35,867 bases of DNA, from contig JAJXUB010000012.1 in the NCBI GenBank assembly GCA_021783215.1, forward strand, positions 1 through 35,867, given 5' to 3'. A program made the translations under genes and the position numbers. The notes beneath the pieces are model-generated. The model was not told the DNA's origin. It was given only the letters and a program-made list of their open reading frames with translations, and ran no database searches. Position 1 is the stretch's first letter; each line of letters starts with the position of its first letter. This DNA is from Actinomycetes bacterium. Lineage in GTDB: Bacteria > Actinomycetota > Actinomycetes > Actinomycetales > Dermatophilaceae. This document shows, in pieces, positions 22,187 through 30,417 of the stretch.

Positions 22187-22203
22187 GTTCAGCTATGCTG
22201 AAC
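22187..22203. promoter_or_regulatory. GTTCAGC-TAT-GCTGAAC palindrome at regulator promoter
   Basis: Perfect 7-bp arms around TAT. The palindrome contains TATGCT (22194-22199), which ends 7 bases before GTG 22207 and can be its -10 element. The half-site TGTTCAG recurs at 22446-22452 inside the gene (as part of the 11-mer AAGTGTTCAGC) and inverted at 22103-22109. It is a candidate site for the XRE half of the regulator and would give autoregulation. Confidence 0.55.
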
Positions 22204-22206
22204 TTC

Positions 22207-23067
22207 GTGACCATCGACGGAGCCCAGGCGGCCACGGGCCCCTCCATTCGCGAGCAACGCCAGCTGCGGAACCTGAGCCTCCGGGAGCTCGCCAGGCGGC
22301 TCGGAGTCAGCGCCGCCACATTGAGTGCCATCGAAAATGGCAAGACGGGCTTGTCGGTGCATCGGCTGTACGAGATCGCTGAGGCGCTCGGCGTCCCACC
22401 GGCCACGCTCGTCGGCGCTTCGACCGTGCCAACGTGGGTGCCAAGTGTTCAGCCAGTCGCCCCGTCCAGCGGGTGGCGCAGCTTCGAGCCGCTTCCCATC
22501 GATGTCGTGCTGGCCGGTGCCATCAGCGCTTTCGTCGCCACTGGGTACCACGGGGCCAGCATGCGCTCAATCGCCAAGCTCGCCGACATGAGCGTTCCAG
22601 GTGTCTACCACCACTACCCCAGCAAACAGGACCTGTTGGTCAGGATCCTCGACATCACCATGACCGATCTGCTCTGGCGACTGGAGGAAGCCCGGACCGA
22701 ACGATCCAACCCTGTTGAGCGCGTGGCCCTGGTGGTGGAGGCGCTGGCCCTTTTTCACGTCCGGCGCAGTGACCTGGCGTTCATCGGCGCGAGCGAGATG
22801 CGCAGTCTGGAGCCGGCGAACTACCAGCGCATCGCAAAGCAGCGAGACGAGGTCCAACGTCTGCTCGATGACCAGATCGCCGACACGATCGACCATGCCG
22901 GCGTCTTGATGGGCCACTATCGAGACGCCGGGAAGGCGATTGCGACCATGTGCACATCCCTGCCGCAGTGGTTCCGCGCAGGTGGGCCGACGACGCCCGA
23001 GGAGATCGCTGCCGAGTACGCGCAGTTCGCCCTACGCCTGATCGGCTGCCCGGATGAACCCCTCTGA
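22207..23067 (+). CDS. XRE-TetR fusion transcriptional regulator
   Basis: A ~286-residue protein with two DNA-binding domains. The first is a Cro/CI-type HTH (REQRQLRNLSLRELARRLGV, SAATLSAIENGKTGLSVHRL). After a ~25-residue linker comes a TetR N-terminal domain (AISAFVATGYHGASMRSIAK, MSVPGVYHHYPSKQDLLVRI) and then a helical ligand/dimer domain of normal TetR size. GTG 22207 fits a leaderless mRNA from TATGCT; ATG 22195 would lie within the -10 element, but is open in frame and adds four residues. It is divergent from the catabolic operon, so it is the likely regulator, with an acyl-CoA or pathway intermediate as a plausible ligand. Confidence 0.88.
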   Translation: MTIDGAQAATGPSIREQRQLRNLSLRELARRLGVSAATLSAIENGKTGLSVHRLYEIAEALGVPPATLVGASTVPTWVPSVQPVAPSSGWRSFEPLPIDVVLAGAISAFVATGYHGASMRSIAKLADMSVPGVYHHYPSKQDLLVRILDITMTDLLWRLEEARTERSNPVERVALVVEALALFHVRRSDLAFIGASEMRSLEPANYQRIAKQRDEVQRLLDDQIADTIDHAGVLMGHYRDAGKAIATMCTSLPQWFRAGGPTTPEEIAAEYAQFALRLIGCPDEPL

Positions 23068-23193
23068 TGGCAGCCGGAGGCGCTGGTGGGGGGTTCTGGC
23101 AAGGAAGCCGCGACGTCGAGGCGCCCCCATATGCGCCGGGGGGGAAGCCCGGCGTTCTCAGTGCCTCTCGGTGCTGCCCGCCGGTGCTTCTGC

Positions 23194-23757
23194 CTAGTAC
23201 CCGTACTTCGAGGTCCCGGTGCTTGTTGTCCCGGGGCTGACGCCGGATGTCTGCGCCGGGATGGAACCGGTGAGCGCCGTGCCCGCGGGGGTGACAAGCC
23301 ACCACTTGGACCCGAAGCCGTTGCTGCCTTGGCCGTTGGTCTGGCCCGGCGCCGTGTCCCCCGAGTAGTAGTACAGCGGGTGGCCGGCATACGTGACCTG
23401 GACCGTGCTGTCGGCACGGGTGAGCGTTCCCAGGTCCGCCATGCGCGCAGCGCCTTGTGCCGTTGGGGCTGCGTGGGTGATGACCGGCGGCCACGCCGCC
23501 GCGCAGCCACCGCTGCACGCCGACCGGCTCTTGCTGTCGCCCTCCCACAGGTAGACGGTGCGCCCGGCTCCGTCGGTCAAGTACGCGCCGGCCGAGCCGG
23601 CCCCGCTCCTGACTACCGTTCCGCCGGAGCCCGCGCTCGTGCCCGTCCCAGCGGGGGCACCGGCGCTGCCGCACGCGGCGACACCCAGAACTCCCGCGAG
23701 CACGGCCAGCATCAATGCCGCCCACCGGGACGGTCGCATCCGGTCGATTCTCGCCAT
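23194..23757 (-). CDS. Secreted lipoprotein with PF03640-type repeats
   Basis: A 187-residue lipoprotein. The signal peptide ends in lipobox VAAC with Cys29. After a Gly/Ser/Thr-rich linker come two copies of the 'secreted repeat of unknown function': YLTDGAGRTVYLWEGD...SGGCAAAWPPV and VTYAGHPLYYYSGDTAPGQTN, ending in WWLVTPAGTAL. Such proteins are surface-exposed and poorly understood; the family is often next to ECF sigma genes. A promoter upstream shares the GAACC-N16-CGT signature with the sigma gene. ATG 23757 has GAGGAGA 6 bases upstream. Confidence 0.86.
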   Translation of the reverse strand: MARIDRMRPSRWAALMLAVLAGVLGVAACGSAGAPAGTGTSAGSGGTVVRSGAGSAGAYLTDGAGRTVYLWEGDSKSRSACSGGCAAAWPPVITHAAPTAQGAARMADLGTLTRADSTVQVTYAGHPLYYYSGDTAPGQTNGQGSNGFGSKWWLVTPAGTALTGSIPAQTSGVSPGTTSTGTSKYGY

Positions 23758-23790
23758 CGTCGTCTCCTCACGGTTGCCGCTCTCCCCCTC

Positions 23791-23818
23791 ATCACGGCTC
23801 GGACGACCGTACGGTTCG
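23791..23818 (-). promoter_or_regulatory. ECF promoter for lipoprotein gene
   Basis: CGAACC (23818-23813), 16-base spacer, CGTGAT (23796-23791) on the minus strand. It matches the two promoters at the sigma gene in the -35 core and spacing. Start would be near 23785. Confidence 0.5.
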
Positions 23819-23840
23819 ATGCGGCAGCCGCTGGTCGTTG

Positions 23841-24533
23841 TCAGACCTTCACGTCGACAAGGACGCGACCCCGGCCGTCAAGCAACACGAAGTGCCGAAG
23901 GCTGCCGACCGGCACCTCGGTCGAGCCGGTGACCTGGGCGTTGCCGTCATACGTAGCCACCCACTGGCTGACCCGATGGCGCGTACCGTCGCCCGCGATC
24001 GCCACCAACGTGCACCGCTCGTTCCTCGGCAGCCCGTCGACGGTGGCCGCGAACGTGGTGCCGGTTCTCGCCGCGGTTAGGTCGATGCCCATGTGGACCC
24101 CGGCTGAGGTCGCCGAGAACGACGCGGTCGTGGGGCCCGCCCCCCGCACCGACCGGATCCCCACGCCAACCGCGGCGCCGAGCAGCAAGGCCGCTGCGGA
24201 AGCGGCGAGCACGGCACGGCGGCCTGGTCGGGCACCCTCGCGCCGGCGAGCGCCCCCCTCCCGCACCGGCACGGCACCCTCGGCGGCCGACCGGGTCCGG
24301 ACATAGAGGTCCTCGAAGTCGCCCCGACCGGGCGCCTCGCGCGGGGCCAGGAGTCCTTCGACGTCGGCCGCGGTGAGCTGCGCCAACATTCCCGCGACCC
24401 CATGCAGCTCCTCGTGCTCCGTCGCGCAGACCGTGCACCGGGCGAGGTGCTGCTCGACACGGGTGACGTCCGCGGGTTCGAGGGCGCTCAGAACGTATGC
24501 CCCCAAGAGGAGCTGGACATGTTCCTCGCTCAT
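23841..24533 (-). CDS. Anti-sigma factor, RskA-like with zinc motif
   Basis: A 230-residue membrane anti-sigma factor. The N-terminal ZAS/zf-HC2 helix has the HxxxCxxC motif (H29, C33, C36 in EQHLARCTVCATE). A single span follows at about residues 107-125 (AVLAASAAALLLGAAVGVG). The C-terminal ~100 residues are an RskA-type extracytoplasmic domain (GIDLTAARTGTTFAATVDGL, ending HFVLLDGRGRVLVDVKV). It would hold the sigma factor at the membrane until proteolysis or a redox signal releases it. Start ATG 24533 overlaps the sigma stop by 4 bases. Confidence 0.88.
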   Translation of the reverse strand: MSEEHVQLLLGAYVLSALEPADVTRVEQHLARCTVCATEHEELHGVAGMLAQLTAADVEGLLAPREAPGRGDFEDLYVRTRSAAEGAVPVREGGARRREGARPGRRAVLAASAAALLLGAAVGVGIRSVRGAGPTTASFSATSAGVHMGIDLTAARTGTTFAATVDGLPRNERCTLVAIAGDGTRHRVSQWVATYDGNAQVTGSTEVPVGSLRHFVLLDGRGRVLVDVKV

Positions 24534-25054
24534 GTGACGACCCCCCGCTCGGTCAGGGCCAGCTTCAAGGCGCGCAGGGCGTAGAAGGCGCGCGACTTCA
24601 CCGTTCCCTCCGGGATCCCGAGCGCGGCGGCAGCATCGGCGACGCTGCGACCGCGGTAGTAGGTCTCGATGAGGACCGCACGGTGGTTCGCGGACAAGGA
24701 CGCCATGGCATCGGTGACGACGATCCGGTTCAGGGTCTCCTCGATGTCGGCCACCGCCGGCATCACCGCGAGCGGACCATCCCCCACCTCAAGCGGGCGC
24801 GCGCTTCGAGACCGGTGGGCGTCGATGGCGAGGCGACGGGCGACGGTGAAGAGCCACGGCCTGAGGGAGCCACGACCCCCGTCCAGGACCTCCGTGTGAC
24901 GCCACGCGCGGATCAGGGTCTCTTGGACGATGTCCTCGGCACGACCCCGGTCACCGCCGGTCAGGCGGCTCGCGTACTCGAGCAACGCAGCGGAGTGCTC
25001 ATCGAACAAGGTTCGAAGCACCGCCTCGCGTTCCCGGTCCATCCGAGCGCCCAC
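24530..25054 (-). CDS. ECF RNA polymerase sigma factor (SigL/SigK-like)
   Basis: A ~174-residue two-domain sigma factor. Region 2 is LFDEHSAALLEYASRLTGGD with DIVQETLIRAWRH and RPWLFTVARRLAIDAHRS. Region 4 is LSANHRAVLIETYYRGRSVA then IPEGTVKSRAFYALRAL. It lacks C-terminal extensions. GTG 25054 lies 6 bases after the CGTACC -10 element, so the mRNA could be leaderless and start at GTG. ATG 25042 is a shorter alternative. The preferred promoter, TGAACC-N16-CGTACC, agrees with what is known of Mycobacterium SigL promoters, but family assignment needs a tree. Confidence 0.88.
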   Translation of the reverse strand: MGARMDREREAVLRTLFDEHSAALLEYASRLTGGDRGRAEDIVQETLIRAWRHTEVLDGGRGSLRPWLFTVARRLAIDAHRSRSARPLEVGDGPLAVMPAVADIEETLNRIVVTDAMASLSANHRAVLIETYYRGRSVADAAAALGIPEGTVKSRAFYALRALKLALTERGVVT

Positions 25055-25060
25055 ATCCTC

Positions 25061-25088
25061 GGTACGGTTCTAGGACATCCAGGGTTCA
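25061..25088 (-). promoter_or_regulatory. Autoregulatory ECF promoter of sigma operon
   Basis: On the minus strand TGAACC (25088-25083), a 16-base spacer and CGTACC (25066-25061). The transcription start would fall at or near GTG 25054. Its -35 and -10 hexamers are identical to those of the divergent promoter at 25156. Confidence 0.65.
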
Positions 25089-25155
25089 AAGATCTCACGG
25101 TTATGTCGTCCCGGCGCCGCAGCAGGTCGCTTCCCTCGCGCCCGGACCCGCGTTG

Positions 25156-25183
25156 TGAACCTCCCGTCAGAACGGCACGTACC
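25156..25183 (+). promoter_or_regulatory. Divergent ECF promoter of membrane protein
   Basis: TGAACC (25156-25161), 16-base spacer, CGTACC (25178-25183). Start would be near 25190, giving a ~57-base leader with GGAGGAGGT before the TTG start. Confidence 0.65.
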
Positions 25184-25246
25184 ACGTGGCAACACGGCAA
25201 CGCCCCGGCCGATGCTCACCGGGCCGGCCGACGGAGGAGGTGCGCC

Positions 25247-25714
25247 TTGACGAGTGCGTGGAGCAGGAGCGGCTCTCGAACCGCTCTGATCGTCGTCACC
25301 GTCGCGGGACTTGCCGAGGACGCGTACGTCCATGTCCACCTGGCAACGAGCTATGACGCGGTGAGGTCCGCCGTGCTCACCGAAGGGGACCTGTTCCGGC
25401 TCGAAGCGGCGCTGGCCGTCATGGCCGCCGTCGCGCTGCTCGCCCTGCCCCGGGCCTCCACCGCGTTCGCCGCCTTCCTCGTTGCGAGCGGCGGCGTGGG
25501 AGCGGTCCTGCTCTACACCTACGTGCGCGTCGGCGCGATCGGGCCGCTGCCCGCCATGTACGAGCCCTTCTGGTATCCCGACAAGGCCCGCAGCCTGTGG
25601 GCCGAGGCAGCGGCCGCCCTCGCCGCGCTAGCCCTTGTGGCGTCCCACGCCTATGGGCGACGTGGGGGCAGCCGGTCAACACGCGGCGACCGCACGGCCG
25701 AGGAGGTCCGTTGA
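25247..25714 (+). CDS. Four-span membrane protein, unknown function
   Basis: A 155-residue protein with about four hydrophobic spans (TALIVVTVAGLAEDAYVHVH, LEAALAVMAAVALLALPRA, AFAAFLVASGGVGAVLLYTY, AAAALAALALVASHAYG) and a basic C-terminal tail. I know no family. TTG 25247 is chosen since GGAGGAGGT lies 6 bases upstream; the longer frame covers the promoter region. The ECF promoter in front makes it a probable target of the adjacent sigma factor, so it likely acts in the envelope stress response. Confidence 0.7.
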   Translation: MTSAWSRSGSRTALIVVTVAGLAEDAYVHVHLATSYDAVRSAVLTEGDLFRLEAALAVMAAVALLALPRASTAFAAFLVASGGVGAVLLYTYVRVGAIGPLPAMYEPFWYPDKARSLWAEAAAALAALALVASHAYGRRGGSRSTRGDRTAEEVR

Positions 25715-25889
25715 CTCGGTTCAACTCACCCCCTCGTTCCGGGCGTGACGGTGCCGTCCCCGCACGGTCCCGCCGCACGCATCGTCTTCTCGCCGCGGGC
25801 CCGGCGCACGCCGGCGGTCACCTTCGGGGCGACCAACGGCGCGGTCCTCGAGGTTCAGCGCGTGGGTCGGCGGCCGTCCCGCGGTGAGG

Positions 25890-28217
25890 TCATTGCCTGG
25901 TGGCCGCGCGTGCGTCGGGCGACGCGGCGCCCGCGGGGATGAGGGAGAAGGCGCTCTCCTCCTCTTGGGCGTTGTGCAGCCGCAGCACGGCATACAGGCC
26001 GTACAGCAGCCGGCGGAGCTCGACGACGTCTTCGGGCTGGACGTTCTCGTTGTCGAGGTCGGTGAGCAGCCGCCGGGCCCGCCCGATCTGGTGGTCGATC
26101 TCCGCATGGGTCCGGCTGATCGCGGCGGTGGCGTCCGAGCCTCCCAGGACCCTGGACACCAGCGGGACGAGGAGCTCCTCGTCGGCCCGCTCGTGGGGCA
26201 GCAGCTCCCGCTCGAGACGGTCGAGCAGGGCGTGAGCGGGGGCGAGGTCGCTGCGATGTGAGGAGAGCGCGTCCGCGACGGCCCGGATCTGTTCGACGTC
26301 CGGTAGGACCGCGTCGTGCTCGGCCTGCAGCCTTCGGGCGAGGGCGATGTCGCCGGGGGACATGGAGATCGTGTGGGCCTTGCCGGGGAGCACCGCCCGC
26401 AGCGCGATCCCGATGGCCAGAACGTCGATGACCTCCTGGAGGATGGCACCGGCCGCCGGCGGGAGCGCCCCAGCCGCCGCCGCGACCATTGCCAGAAGCG
26501 AAAGGCCCATGCCTATCGCGACGGCCTGCACAGCGATGCCCTTGGACCGGCGCGCGATGAGGATGGCATCCGCAAGTGTGCCGACCCGGTCGACCGTCAG
26601 GACGACGTCCGCGGCCTCCGATGACGCCGTCGCCCCGCGCGCGGCGAGCGCAACCCCGACGCCGGCGGCCGCGAGCGCCGGCGCGTCGTTCACGCCGTCC
26701 CCGACCATGATGGTGGCGCCGCCGGCCGCCTCGGCCGTGATGGCGGCGAGCTTGTCGGCGGGGTCGCAGTCTGCGAGCACGGTATCGACCCCGACGATGC
26801 GCCCGACCGTGTCGGCGATGTCGGCACGGTCTCCCGTGACGAGAACCACGCGGCTGATGCCCGCGTCGCGCAGGGCCCGGATCATGCGGGGGGCGTCGGA
26901 GCGGATCGGGTCCTCCAGGAGGAAGGCACCCGATGGCTGTCCATCGACGGCGACGAAGACGGTGAGTGAGCCGTCGAGGTCGGCACGCCGACGGACCTGC
27001 CGCACCCACGCGGGCTTGGAACCCGGAACGATCCAGTCCACCTTGCCCAGGCGCACCTCGCGCCCCCCGACCATGCCGCGCAAGCCGTAGCCGTGCTCCT
27101 CCACGACATCTGAGGGCATCTGCAGGCTGAGGTCGCGGCGGCTCGCTCCGGTGACGATGGCGCTGGCCAGCACGTGCGGCGAGACCTGGTCGAGAGAGGC
27201 GGCGAGGCGCAGGACCTCGTCGGCGTCGACCCCTTCGGACTCGGTGACCACCGAGGCCAGGGCCGGCCGCCCCTGGGTGAGGGTTCCCGTCTTGTCGAAC
27301 AGCATGACGCGCCCGGCGGCGAGCCGCTCCAGCGCCCCACCCCCCTTGATGATGACGCCGATGTGCGCCGCCCTCGACAGGCCCGACATGATGGCGATCG
27401 GGGCCGCCAGGAGGAGCGGGCACGGGGTCGCGACCACGAGGACGGCAACGGCGCGCACCGGATCGGCGCCGATCGCCCAGGCGGCCCCGGCCAGAGCCAG
27501 CGTGAGCGGGACGAACAGGACGGCGAAGCGGTCGGCCGCACGCACGAATGGCGCCGACGAAGCCTGGGCCTGCTTCACGAGTCGGACAACTCCGGCATAC
27601 GTGGACTCCGCCGCAACCGCGGTGGCGATGAGCTCCAGAGGCGGGCCCGCGTTGACCACGCCGCTGCGGACCTCGTCGCCAGCGGGTCGCTCCACCGGGA
27701 GCGGCTCCCCGGTCAAGGCCGCCTCGTCGAGGGTTGCGCCCGACACGAGCCGTCCGTCGACGGGGACGACCTCGCCGGTGCCGACGACGATCCGGTCACC
27801 TCGGGCGACCTCGTCGATCGAGACCTCGACGATGTCCGCCCCGAGGTGGCGGCGAGCCGTGCGCGGTGCGCGCTCGACGAGCAGGCTCAGCTCGCGCCGG
27901 GCGCGCGCGGCGGCCCTCGCCTCAAGGAGCTGGCCGGAGGCCAGCATGACGGTGATCATGGCTCCGGCGAAGGGCTCGCCGACCGCCAGCGCTCCGGCGA
28001 GGGCGAGCACCGCGATAACGTCGACGCTCGGCTGACGTCGCCGAACCGCGCCCACGGTCCAGGCGAGTGACGCCGCCAGACCGAGGACCGCGCCGGCCAC
28101 CCAGCATCCGCTCGCCACGCCCAGGGCGCCCGACAGCCAGGCCGCCCCGCCCGCGAGCAGCAGGGCACCGGAGGAGACGAACAGCAGCAGCTCCTTGCGC
28201 TCCCGCATCCACGTCAC
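25890..28217 (-). CDS. P1B-type metal ATPase with C-terminal hemerythrin domain (P1B-5-like)
   Basis: A 775-residue heavy-metal exporter. It has no N-terminal HMA domain. The actuator domain has TGEPLPVERP (169-178), the transmembrane metal motif is TPCPL (264-268) in place of CPC, the phosphorylation site is DKTGTLTQG (Asp308), and the hinge is GDGVNDAPAL (506-515). Residues about 625-765 form a hemerythrin-like bundle with likely di-iron ligands His634, His675, His704, His709, His748 and Glu752/753. TPC plus hemerythrin defines P1B-5 ATPases, whose studied members (such as Sinorhizobium Nia) export nickel and iron. No metal-responsive regulator is adjacent. Confidence 0.93.
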   Translation of the reverse strand: MTWMRERKELLLFVSSGALLLAGGAAWLSGALGVASGCWVAGAVLGLAASLAWTVGAVRRRQPSVDVIAVLALAGALAVGEPFAGAMITVMLASGQLLEARAAARARRELSLLVERAPRTARRHLGADIVEVSIDEVARGDRIVVGTGEVVPVDGRLVSGATLDEAALTGEPLPVERPAGDEVRSGVVNAGPPLELIATAVAAESTYAGVVRLVKQAQASSAPFVRAADRFAVLFVPLTLALAGAAWAIGADPVRAVAVLVVATPCPLLLAAPIAIMSGLSRAAHIGVIIKGGGALERLAAGRVMLFDKTGTLTQGRPALASVVTESEGVDADEVLRLAASLDQVSPHVLASAIVTGASRRDLSLQMPSDVVEEHGYGLRGMVGGREVRLGKVDWIVPGSKPAWVRQVRRRADLDGSLTVFVAVDGQPSGAFLLEDPIRSDAPRMIRALRDAGISRVVLVTGDRADIADTVGRIVGVDTVLADCDPADKLAAITAEAAGGATIMVGDGVNDAPALAAAGVGVALAARGATASSEAADVVLTVDRVGTLADAILIARRSKGIAVQAVAIGMGLSLLAMVAAAAGALPPAAGAILQEVIDVLAIGIALRAVLPGKAHTISMSPGDIALARRLQAEHDAVLPDVEQIRAVADALSSHRSDLAPAHALLDRLERELLPHERADEELLVPLVSRVLGGSDATAAISRTHAEIDHQIGRARRLLTDLDNENVQPEDVVELRRLLYGLYAVLRLHNAQEEESAFSLIPAGAASPDARAATRQ

Positions 28218-28599: not shown

Positions 28600-28986
28600 T
28601 CATGACACGCCCTCGGGTGGTGCGTCGGACTGGAACCGCACGCGATGCGGGAAGCGGTGCACCTCCTGCGGCCAGCCGACGGCGACCGCGATCCGGCCGG
28701 CCCAGTAGCGCGCCTGTGCATCGTCGGGTACGTCTATGACCGCGAAGCCGCCCAGGTGCTCCTTGGTCTCCGCGTACGGTCCGTCGGTGAAGACGGGCGA
28801 ACCGCTGCCCGGGTCGACGCTGCCGATGACGCTCGAGGCGTCCAGCCCGCCGTCGCTGAAGACGAAGACGCCGGCGCTCGTCATCTCGTCGATGACGGCC
28901 CTGGCGGCGCCACCCCTGTCGCGCACCTCGTCCATCGTGAGGTCGGGCACCCACTCGTCGTTGAACGCAACCAGATACAAGGCCAT
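28600..28986 (-). CDS. YCII/DGPF-domain protein
   Basis: A 128-residue protein of the YCII-related family (DGPF group). The diagnostic run FTDGPYAETKEHLGGFAVID is complete, followed by AQARYWAGRIAVAVGWP. The function of these proteins is unknown; they are repeatedly encoded with ECF42 sigma factors. ATG 28986 has AGAGGAGCC upstream. A promoter at 29038-29065 and a hairpin leader are shared with the second YCII gene. It lies downstream of the sigma gene. Confidence 0.88.
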   Translation of the reverse strand: MALYLVAFNDEWVPDLTMDEVRDRGGAARAVIDEMTSAGVFVFSDGGLDASSVIGSVDPGSGSPVFTDGPYAETKEHLGGFAVIDVPDDAQARYWAGRIAVAVGWPQEVHRFPHRVRFQSDAPPEGVS

Positions 28987-29009
28987 CTCAGGCTCCTCTC
29001 TGCTGTCGA

Positions 29010-29025
29010 GCGGCCCGGGGGCCGC
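29010..29025 (-). promoter_or_regulatory. Leader hairpin of YCII gene 1
   Basis: GCGGCCC-GG-GGGCCGC (two-base centre) lies between the promoter and the ribosome binding site. A similarly placed GGCGGCC...GGCCGTC hairpin precedes the second YCII gene. Confidence 0.5.
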
Positions 29026-29037
29026 CTCTCACCCTCT

Positions 29038-29065
29038 CTACGAGGACACTCGTGCCGATACGACA
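29038..29065 (-). promoter_or_regulatory. ECF42-type promoter of YCII gene 1
   Basis: On the minus strand TGTCGT (29065-29060), 16 bases, TCGTAG (29043-29038). It is nearly the same as the promoter of YCII gene 2 in sequence and spacing. Start would be near 29031. Confidence 0.55.
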
Positions 29066-29205
29066 CATGCGCGAGGGTCGCTTTCGATCCGGTCTCGCTC
29101 GGTACAAGCTCCCGCGTCTGTCACTGTTCGCCTCACGGCGGCCACGCCACTCGAGGAAGGTCTGTCCGAGTTGCCCGGACGGCTGTCCGCGGCCGGGCCG
29201 GGTCC

Positions 29206-30417
29206 TCAGGCCAGGTCGGCGCGTCTCCTCCTGAGGTAGGCACGCTCGGCGGTGTTCGCGGTGGCGGCGATCGCGGCTTCGTACGCCAGGGCTGCCTCCG
29301 CCGTGCGACCCAGCCGGCGGAGCAGGTCGGCGCGGGTGGCATGCCATGCGTGATATCCCGTGAGCGGAAGTCCGTCGACGAGGGCGAGGGCGAGGTCCGG
29401 GCCGTCCAGCTCCGCCACCGCGACCGCGCGGTTGAGGGCCACGATCGGTGACGGGTCGAGCCGGACCAGGAGATCGTAGAGCGAGACGACCTGCGACCAG
29501 TCGGTGTCCTGCGCCCTCGCGGCGTCTGTATGCACGGCGTTGAGGGCGGCGAGGACCTGGTAGCGGCCGGGCCGGTTGATCGCGAGACACCAGCGGACCA
29601 GGTCTCGGCCTTCGGCGACCAACGCGCGGTCCCAGTCGGAGCGATCCTGCTCACCGAGTGGGACCAGCTCCCCGTTCCGCACCCGCGCCCGGCGCCGAGC
29701 CTCGGTCAGCAGCTGAAGGCCGAGCAGCCCGGCCACCTCCGGCTCCTTCGGAAGCAGCCGGTGGAGGATCCGTGTCAGCCGGATCGCCTCACCGGTCAGC
29801 TCGGCGCGGATCGGGTCACGATCTCCCGTCGCGAGGTAACCCTCGTTGAAGACGAGGTACAGCACAGCCAGGACGGCATCGAGCCGCGCAGGGAGGTCCG
29901 CGGCCTCCGGAACGCGGTAGGGCACCCGTGCCGCCGCAATCTTCTTCTTCGCCCGAGTGATCCGTTGAGCCATGGTGCTCTCCGGCACGAGGAACGCCCG
30001 CGCGATCTCGGCGACGGTCAACCCACCGAGAAGCCGAAGCGTCAACGCCAGCCGCGCTTCCGGCGAAAGGGCAGGGTGGCAGCAGGTGAAGATCAGCCGG
30101 AGCCGGTCGTCCTCAACCGGCCCGGTGGGCTCGCGGGGCGTACCGTCGTACATCATCAGGGCCGCCTGGTGCTTGGCGTCGCGGTGCCCTTCGCGGCGGA
30201 TCCGGTCGATCGCCCGGTTGGTAGCCGTGGTGGTGAGCCACCCACCCGGGTTGGGGGGCATGCCGGACGTCGGCCACCTCTCCAAGGCCACCACCAACGC
30301 GTCGTTCGCCGCGTCCTCGGCGATGTCCATGTCACCGAAGCGGCGAACGAGCGAGGCGACCACCCGGCCGTACTCCTCGCGGAAGGCCGTTTCGAGCGCC
30401 GCCATTGCGTCCGGCAT
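29206..30417 (-). CDS. ECF42-type RNA polymerase sigma factor with C-terminal helical extension
   Basis: A 403-residue sigma factor. Region 2 covers about residues 5-80 (AFREEYGRVVASLVRRFGDM, DALVVALERWP, GWLTTTATNRAIDRIRR) and region 4 about 110-165 (LSPEARLALTLRLLGGLTVA, VPESTMAQRITRAKKKI). A long C-terminal extension holds DUF6596 (YLVFNEGYLATGDRDPIRAE) and TPR-like repeats (EAALAYEAAIAATANTAERA). This layout and the YCII neighbours on both sides are typical of the ECF42 group, which has no anti-sigma factor and may be controlled by the extension. It starts 23 bases after the upstream YCII stop, so the two are probably one operon. Confidence 0.92.
   Translation of the reverse strand: MPDAMAALETAFREEYGRVVASLVRRFGDMDIAEDAANDALVVALERWPTSGMPPNPGGWLTTTATNRAIDRIRREGHRDAKHQAALMMYDGTPREPTGPVEDDRLRLIFTCCHPALSPEARLALTLRLLGGLTVAEIARAFLVPESTMAQRITRAKKKIAAARVPYRVPEAADLPARLDAVLAVLYLVFNEGYLATGDRDPIRAELTGEAIRLTRILHRLLPKEPEVAGLLGLQLLTEARRRARVRNGELVPLGEQDRSDWDRALVAEGRDLVRWCLAINRPGRYQVLAALNAVHTDAARAQDTDWSQVVSLYDLLVRLDPSPIVALNRAVAVAELDGPDLALALVDGLPLTGYHAWHATRADLLRRLGRTAEAALAYEAAIAATANTAERAYLRRRRADLA

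Follow-up and report, generated by a model that had tools for sequence, protein, structure and literature searches.

A probable SigL/RslA-type regulon joining an uncatalogued membrane protein family and a PF03640 lipoprotein in an actinomycete

The stretch of actinomycete DNA analyzed here (the window, 35,867 nt in full) appears to harbor a compact SigL/RslA-type regulon in which four gene products are brought together by promoters of one kind: an ECF sigma factor, its membrane-bound zinc anti-sigma factor, a small membrane protein (TM4) whose family is not catalogued, and a PF03640 lipoprotein. Taken as a whole, with TM4 and the lipoprotein as a redox/copper pair, this is the best explanation of the data, with a probability of roughly 0.7. 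The safest statement is that the sigma factor and TM4, and with slightly less certainty the lipoprotein, would belong to one SigL-type regulon, while the assignment of TM4 and the lipoprotein to a redox or copper unit, considered by itself, is tentative. The promoter motifs, the gene families, and their conserved linkage are established at the level of sequence. SigL/RslA systems are known mainly from mycobacteria, where regulons are larger and signals poorly defined. Since the likely regulon comprises three transcription units, sigma factor, inhibitor, and effectors could be transferred as one set to a laboratory strain. For the unnamed four-span membrane family and for PF03640 lipoproteins, the comparison with relatives supplies a lead that can be tested.

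Promoters and genes of the predicted regulon

A first-pass annotation of this DNA had placed three GAACC-N16-CGT sites in the region, and direct reading of the sequence finds them all. The promoter of the sigma/anti-sigma operon (25061-25088, minus strand) reads TGAACC-CTGGATGTCCTAGAAC-CGTACC and is separated by 6 nt from the GTG start of the sigma gene (25054). The TM4 promoter (25156-25183, plus strand) reads TGAACC-TCCCGTCAGAACGGCA-CGTACC, with a gap of 63 nt to the TTG start of TM4 (25247), before which stands GGAGGAGG. These two form a divergent pair with identical hexamers, as had been annotated. The third site, the promoter of the PF03640 lipoprotein gene (23791-23818, minus strand), reads CGAACC-GTACGGTCGTCCGAGC-CGTGAT, lies within the gap after the anti-sigma gene, and stands 33 nt from the lipoprotein ATG (23757). 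It is the weakest of the three, departing from the majority first base T, and would not be convincing if taken alone; because CGAACC-N16-CGT has 78 copies in the genome, its support comes mainly from its position and from relatives. A search for sigma-70-type promoters in 23000-25900 returned none, which is uninformative since merely 0.1 is expected in shuffled sequence.

The sigL-like ECF sigma factor gene (24530..25054, minus strand, GTG start) encodes 174 residues with Pfam sigma r2/r4 matches. The protein scores 233.6 bits against NF007227 (PRK09645.1), above the cut-off of 202, and PRK09645 is a model that we take to be SigL. Among solved structures M. tuberculosis SigL comes closest (6dv9, E 3.9e-42), and the top chain that is not a SigL reaches 1.4e-13, so that the SigL-type label of the first-pass annotation fits on both counts. 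Autoregulation is predicted, as the motif before the sigma gene is present in the window and conserved. The first in-frame start codon falls 6 nt past the -10 hexamer at 16 of 39 measured sigma promoters, the window among them, and because of this short distance the sigma transcript is predicted to be leaderless in the window and in the other 6-nt cases.

The -10 consensus published for M. tuberculosis SigL, T-G-N-C/A-A-G, is preferably preceded by CG, and the G is read by Asp60 (PMC6372665). The window sigma factor has a histidine at SigL position 54 and a glycine at position 60 instead of Asp60. T at -12 is kept; the sigma and TM4 sites (two of three) carry A at -11, where the consensus has G, and the lipoprotein site reads CGTGAT. 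When the reading of T -12 and G -11 by His54 and Asp60 is used as a test of membership, the window thus differs at residue 60 and at two of its three sites. We treat this mismatch as a difference and not as an exclusion from the SigL type, because the feature belongs to the specificity of the M. tuberculosis protein and varies widely in the subfamily. A covariation of residue 60 with base -11, suggested by the first eight loci, was dropped after more loci were added: the base after CGT is G in two and A in one of the loci with Asp60, A in three and G in one with Gln60, and G in one and A in one with Pro60. The annotation had also called it established that Mycobacterium SigL-type promoters look like TGAACC...CGT. 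The CGT at -10 is indeed shared, but the string TGAACC does not occur in the partial texts of the SigL literature searched.

The anti-sigma gene (23841..24533, minus strand) encodes a 230-residue, RslA-like membrane-bound zinc anti-sigma factor with a zf-HC2 domain (26.7 bits, cut-off 22.2), an H-x3-C-x2-C zinc motif that can be read in the sequence, and a match to the RslA anti-sigma domain (3hug_B, E 8e-5). A single membrane span (residues 108-126) lies behind the cytoplasmic domain, and the C-terminal domain beyond it is presumably exported. The protein falls below the cut-off of all three anti-sigma models that it matches (40 vs 100 bits for NF052375), and the claim is limited to homology with the RslA anti-sigma domain only. 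RslA senses oxidation via its zinc site (PMC2877774). Two frames of the window's genome match M50 proteases; their presence lends no specific support, because all 14 of 14 control genomes have M50 proteases.

The lipoprotein gene (23194..23757, minus strand) encodes 187 residues that match PF03640 (Lipoprotein_15) in two stretches with 93.2 bits (cut-off 24.4). In five aligned sequences the lipobox Cys29 is conserved and a Cys-x3-Cys motif (residues 81 and 85) is invariant, while no histidine or methionine is. Only this Cys-x3-Cys motif suggests metal or thiol chemistry. A structural model built from the five sequences has a pLDDT of 61 and no PDB match at E <= 0.001.

TM4 (25247..25714, plus strand, TTG start) is a 155-residue protein divergent from the sigma gene. 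Neither Pfam nor NCBIfam yields a match to it, matches among the relatives scanned are weak throughout, and related proteins are found in 13 of 146 other genomes. Its invariant positions in 15 aligned sequences include His29, Phe50, Pro102, Trp109, and Glu120, with the invariant histidine near the end of the first span and the invariant glutamate in the last. The annotated four spans are borne out as four hydrophobic segments in relatives (L197, L198, L200-L203, and L213); in the window protein the hydropathy cut-off gives three, since the first, histidine-bearing segment falls below it. TM4 modelled alone reaches a pLDDT of 48, and the model was not used. A second TM4-related group occurs in the same regulon, with a profile comparison of 98.9% that is favored by the presence of L061 and L062 in both alignments. 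In another locus, a small hydrophobic protein with a histidine in its first segment follows the motif beside a sigma gene and has no Pfam match (L063, 7222-7707, plus strand).

Three further features of the window lie around these genes. A P-type metal ATPase (P1B by our reading) with a C-terminal hemerythrin domain is encoded in one 775-aa frame (25890-28217, minus strand; PF00122, PF00702, PF01814). Such a fusion beside the regulon looks unusual; the gene is convergent with TM4 and was left out of the regulon. At 28600-28986 and 29944-30336 (minus strand), a YCII-type protein gene (PF03795) is separated by about 1 kb from another ECF sigma match, a distant one, and the pair at 28600-30336 presumably resembles the ECF42/DGPF pair. 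On the other side, one protein joins a Cro/C1-type HTH to a TetR-type regulator (22195-23067, plus strand; HTH_3, TetR_N, TetR_C_24).

The motif in the window's genome

The genome scan for GAACC-N16-CGT that the annotation had put forward was run on the 2.28-Mb assembly (196 contigs, 98% complete). This loose pattern says little alone because it is common, with 6 sites in the window (1.9 expected) and 185 in the genome. The stricter TGAACC-N16-CGT has 18 sites and its reversed-pattern control 0. Two of the 18 are the divergent sigma/TM4 pair, and this is the only pair of sites with a convincing gene behind it: a mechanical frame reading finds no convincing gene start behind any of the other 16. 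Fourteen of these 16 lie inside frames of coding-like composition; by our reading, L150 lies within a 560-aa frame and L029 between convergent genes. The first frame reading sought frames opening after the site and overlooked TM4 itself, whose frame is open across its promoter. In a relaxed repeat, which accepted frames of at least 80 aa opening at most 250 bases behind each site, such frames occur at 8 of the 16 (L029, L150, L152, L155, L156, L157, L159, and L160); judged by composition, none of the eight has the codon-position pattern GC3 > GC1 > GC2 seen in the sigma gene. Frame reading is not decisive for gene starts, and the sequence of L148 stops about 30 bases behind its site.

At the observed density (18 sites, both strands, 2.28 Mb), the chance of a TGAACC-N16-CGT site in a given 150-base upstream region is about 6e-4. 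Each partner is represented once in the genome: a single SigL-type sigma factor matches strongly (280 bits, the runner-up 58), and there is a single PF03640 gene and a single TM4 gene. That the regulon is self-contained, as first annotated, is likely and falls short of proof with the 185 weaker GAACC-N16-CGT sites partly examined.

Conservation in relatives

Comparison with relatives shows the putative promoter motifs to be real. A total of 116 loci was fetched, comprising 16 TM4 stretches, 80 named sigma loci (from Streptomyces, Actinomadura, Nonomuraea, Blastococcus, Frankiaceae, and others), and 20 further sigma stretches. The motif count used 58 of the 116 and the window: all 16 TM4 stretches, all 20 further sigma stretches, and 22 of the 80 named loci. 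The 58 omitted loci are all from Streptomyces or other Streptomycetaceae and have no TGAACC-N15-17-CGT within 1.2 kb upstream of the sigma gene. Matches were counted up to 300 bases upstream of a profile match, with identical stretches taken once and the window excluded. By this rule TGAACC-N16-CGT precedes 37 of 49 sigma genes (41 with C allowed as the first base), a fraction raised by the omission of the Streptomyces-type loci, with which it would be about 37/107. It also precedes 7 of 8 PF03640 lipoprotein genes, 11 of 24 TM4 genes, and none of 51 anti-sigma genes. The maxima reached by 1,074 permuted motifs are 3 before sigma, 1 before lipoprotein, 1 before TM4, and 19 before anti-sigma genes, the last perhaps reflecting a conserved coding word in the sigma gene. 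As related genomes are not independent, the counts in relatives measure conservation and not probability.

Spacers other than 16 give 0 or 1 matches before sigma genes except for N12. TGAACC-N12-CGT stands before 9 of 49 sigma genes, either as a second element or as a by-product of close relatedness. In a class-level set of 27 TM4 loci, taken from 39 matches spread over 32 of 394 genomes (30 loci were returned, of which 3 were already known), the motif occurs with N16 in nine and with N19 in one, against a permuted maximum of 3.

The layout of the window recurs as well. Divergent TGAACC pairs are found in 11 of the 58 other loci, and the site lies between the anti-sigma and lipoprotein genes, as in the window, in L053, L057, L213, and L214. 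L213, which comes from another family within the same taxonomic order, repeats the full arrangement: TM4 divergent from sigma/anti-sigma, followed by a separate lipoprotein promoter. A first base C, matching the lipoprotein site of the window, precedes the sigma gene in L123, L208, L210, and L211.

Streptomyces-type SigL-like genes lack TGAACC-N15-17-CGT in the 1.2 kb upstream. Within 300 bases, 40 of 59 such loci carry TGAACA- or TGAACG-N16-CGT (32 and 8 loci), and permuted versions reach at most 0 and 2. We regard this motif as a variant promoter and not as a counter-example. In three loci of this type (L071, L072, and L125), a PF03640 gene stands directly before the sigma gene.

TM4 and the sigma type also co-occur. 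A SigL-type sigma factor (E 1e-40 or better) is present in 12 of 13 TM4-bearing genomes and 34 of 133 others (p 3e-6), a result favored by the sigma alignment, which was built from sigma factors near TM4. The annotated claim that one sigma factor drives its own operon, TM4, and the lipoprotein is thus supported, as a prediction, by the genome counts and by the conservation of motif, exact spacer, and targets.

Partners of TM4 and competing explanations

A cupredoxin and/or PF03640 lipoprotein lies within 1 kb of TM4 in 11 of 16 family-level loci, the set that also supplied most of the cupredoxin profile, and in 12 of 27 class-level loci. At the class level, 20 of 27 TM4 loci are accompanied by a cupredoxin, PF03640, the motif, a sigma factor, or several of these, and 7 by none, two of the latter being contigs cut close to the TM4 gene. 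The background loci, 1.09 Mb in all, contain a single match to the cupredoxin profile, in L143, which itself holds a TM4-like gene. The PF03640 profile has seven matches there, which fall on the gene of the window itself (L008, L009) and on neighbors of SigL-like sigma genes. Pfam cupredoxin-type domains score above cut-off in L056, L059, L196, L234, and L237, whereas those of L061 and L062 fall slightly short of it; the remaining cupredoxin assignments rest on our own profile. Lipoprotein, cupredoxin, and TM4 stand in a row in L237. Eight family-level loci have TM4 beside a cupredoxin, with the N16 motif in front only in L061 and L062; L049 has an N17 version. In the window the cupredoxin profile has no match.

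The redox/copper reading of TM4 and the lipoprotein, tentative as it is, is advanced because cupredoxins hold the place of the lipoprotein elsewhere, because RslA responds to oxidation, and because of the SigL-linked genes and the iron/zinc role of SigL. SigL matters in low iron and zinc and affects iron/zinc homeostasis (PMC10449499), and Mpt53 and a cytochrome c biogenesis protein are among the products of SigL-linked genes in Mycobacterium (PMC2806251). The first-pass annotation had spoken of an envelope response, which fits; comparison with relatives points to something narrower, extracytoplasmic redox/copper chemistry. A wider proposal, held with more doubt than confidence, is that TM4 and an exported lipoprotein constitute an undescribed extracytoplasmic redox/copper unit of Actinomycetes, often SigL-controlled, in which TM4 would provide the membrane component and the outer one would be, interchangeably, a cupredoxin, a PF03640 lipoprotein, or perhaps a Rieske lipoprotein. 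If true, the PF03640 "secreted repeat of unknown function" would gain a functional assignment. No paper joining PF03640 or cupredoxin lipoproteins to a SigL-type regulon was found in the open literature searched, which covered titles and the starts of abstracts, with most subscription papers outside it; absence from print is not claimed.

Other genes behind the motif bear on an alternative that we consider rather unlikely, in which the regulon is real and its effectors serve general envelope or cell-wall maintenance with no redox or copper chemistry. LPG_synthase_TM and CDP-alcohol phosphatidyltransferase genes (Pfam) follow the motif in L048, and M. tuberculosis SigL also drives polyketide synthase genes (PMC13002591), both of which speak for such a role; yet the genes that recur next to TM4 encode cupredoxins and PF03640 lipoproteins, and the promoter motif is shared by Rieske lipoproteins, which stand directly behind it in two relatives (L201 and L206), as cupredoxin lipoproteins do in L061, L062, and L196. 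A zinc-dehydrogenase-like gene, below the Pfam cut-off, follows the motif in L197, and by our reading of the translations proteins similar to one or another of these three kinds stand behind it in L197, L198, L200, L203, and L205. Because such genes, LPG_synthase_TM, and CDP-alcohol phosphatidyltransferase follow the motif too, these regulons are not purely redox, and a second, lipid-related gene set may perhaps be under the same sigma type.

Gene order bears on a further alternative, an unlikely one, that TM4 and the lipoprotein belong to the signaling circuit of a real regulon, sensing envelope state or metal load and feeding back on the anti-sigma factor. In L061, L062, and L246, TM4 immediately precedes the sigma/anti-sigma genes in the same direction, and L246 has an additional motif ahead of its sigma gene; in L067, L071, L072, and L125 it is a PF03640 lipoprotein gene that comes before the sigma gene. 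Both arrangements count in favor of this alternative. Elsewhere, however, TM4 stands behind a motif of its own, 3.5 kb away from the sigma gene in L048 and with no SigL-type gene in the available stretch in L052, L058, and L060, and in L049, L051, L054-L056, and L059 it stands beside a cupredoxin with no N16 motif or SigL-type gene near. These positions suit an effector better than a signaling part. That the motif matches arose by chance and the genes are not co-regulated is very improbable, since, common as GAACC-N16-CGT is in genome and window, its sequence, exact spacer, and target genes are conserved far above permuted motifs, and a convincing gene follows just two of the 18 stricter genomic sites, the pair in the window.

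Proposed mechanism

In the favored reading, a SigL/RslA-type regulon with a redox/copper pair, the membrane-bound zinc anti-sigma factor would hold the sigma factor until an extracytoplasmic or redox signal frees it, by oxidation of the zinc site and/or regulated proteolysis as described for RslA. The freed sigma factor would read TGAACC/CGAACC-N16-CGT at three sites. Transcription from the promoter of its own operon would yield positive feedback together with renewed inhibitor, and the other two promoters would yield TM4 and the PF03640 lipoprotein. TM4 and the lipoprotein may then act jointly, perhaps as a physical pair, at the outer face of the membrane. Their preferred function is that of a putative electron-transfer or copper-handling pair against oxidative or metal stress of the envelope, in which the PF03640 lipoprotein would take the place held by the cupredoxin lipoprotein beside TM4 in relatives.

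Comparison with known systems

PF03640 repeats are shared with the SCO0930-family lipoproteins of Streptomyces, but the window lipoprotein falls below the NF040526 cut-off (85.6 vs 275 bits) and is not a member of that family. SCO0930 is listed among the secreted proteins of the SigU sigma regulon (PMC6295645). The cupredoxin lipoproteins beside TM4 in relatives occupy the same genomic place as the window lipoprotein, and three of them follow the same motif; the window lipoprotein nevertheless belongs to a different family and has no Pfam cupredoxin match.

With M. tuberculosis SigL/RslA the window shares the sigma subfamily, a membrane-bound zinc anti-sigma factor, and CGT at -10. The M. tuberculosis sigma factor raises its own expression, and its anti-sigma factor is cut by Rip1 (PMC10449499); the autoregulation described there is predicted here. 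The window differs in lacking Asp60, in having two of three -10 elements without G at -11, and in its predicted targets, which are TM4 and a PF03640 lipoprotein, whereas those reported for M. tuberculosis SigL are Mpt53, polyketide synthase, and Rv1139c-Rv1138c genes.
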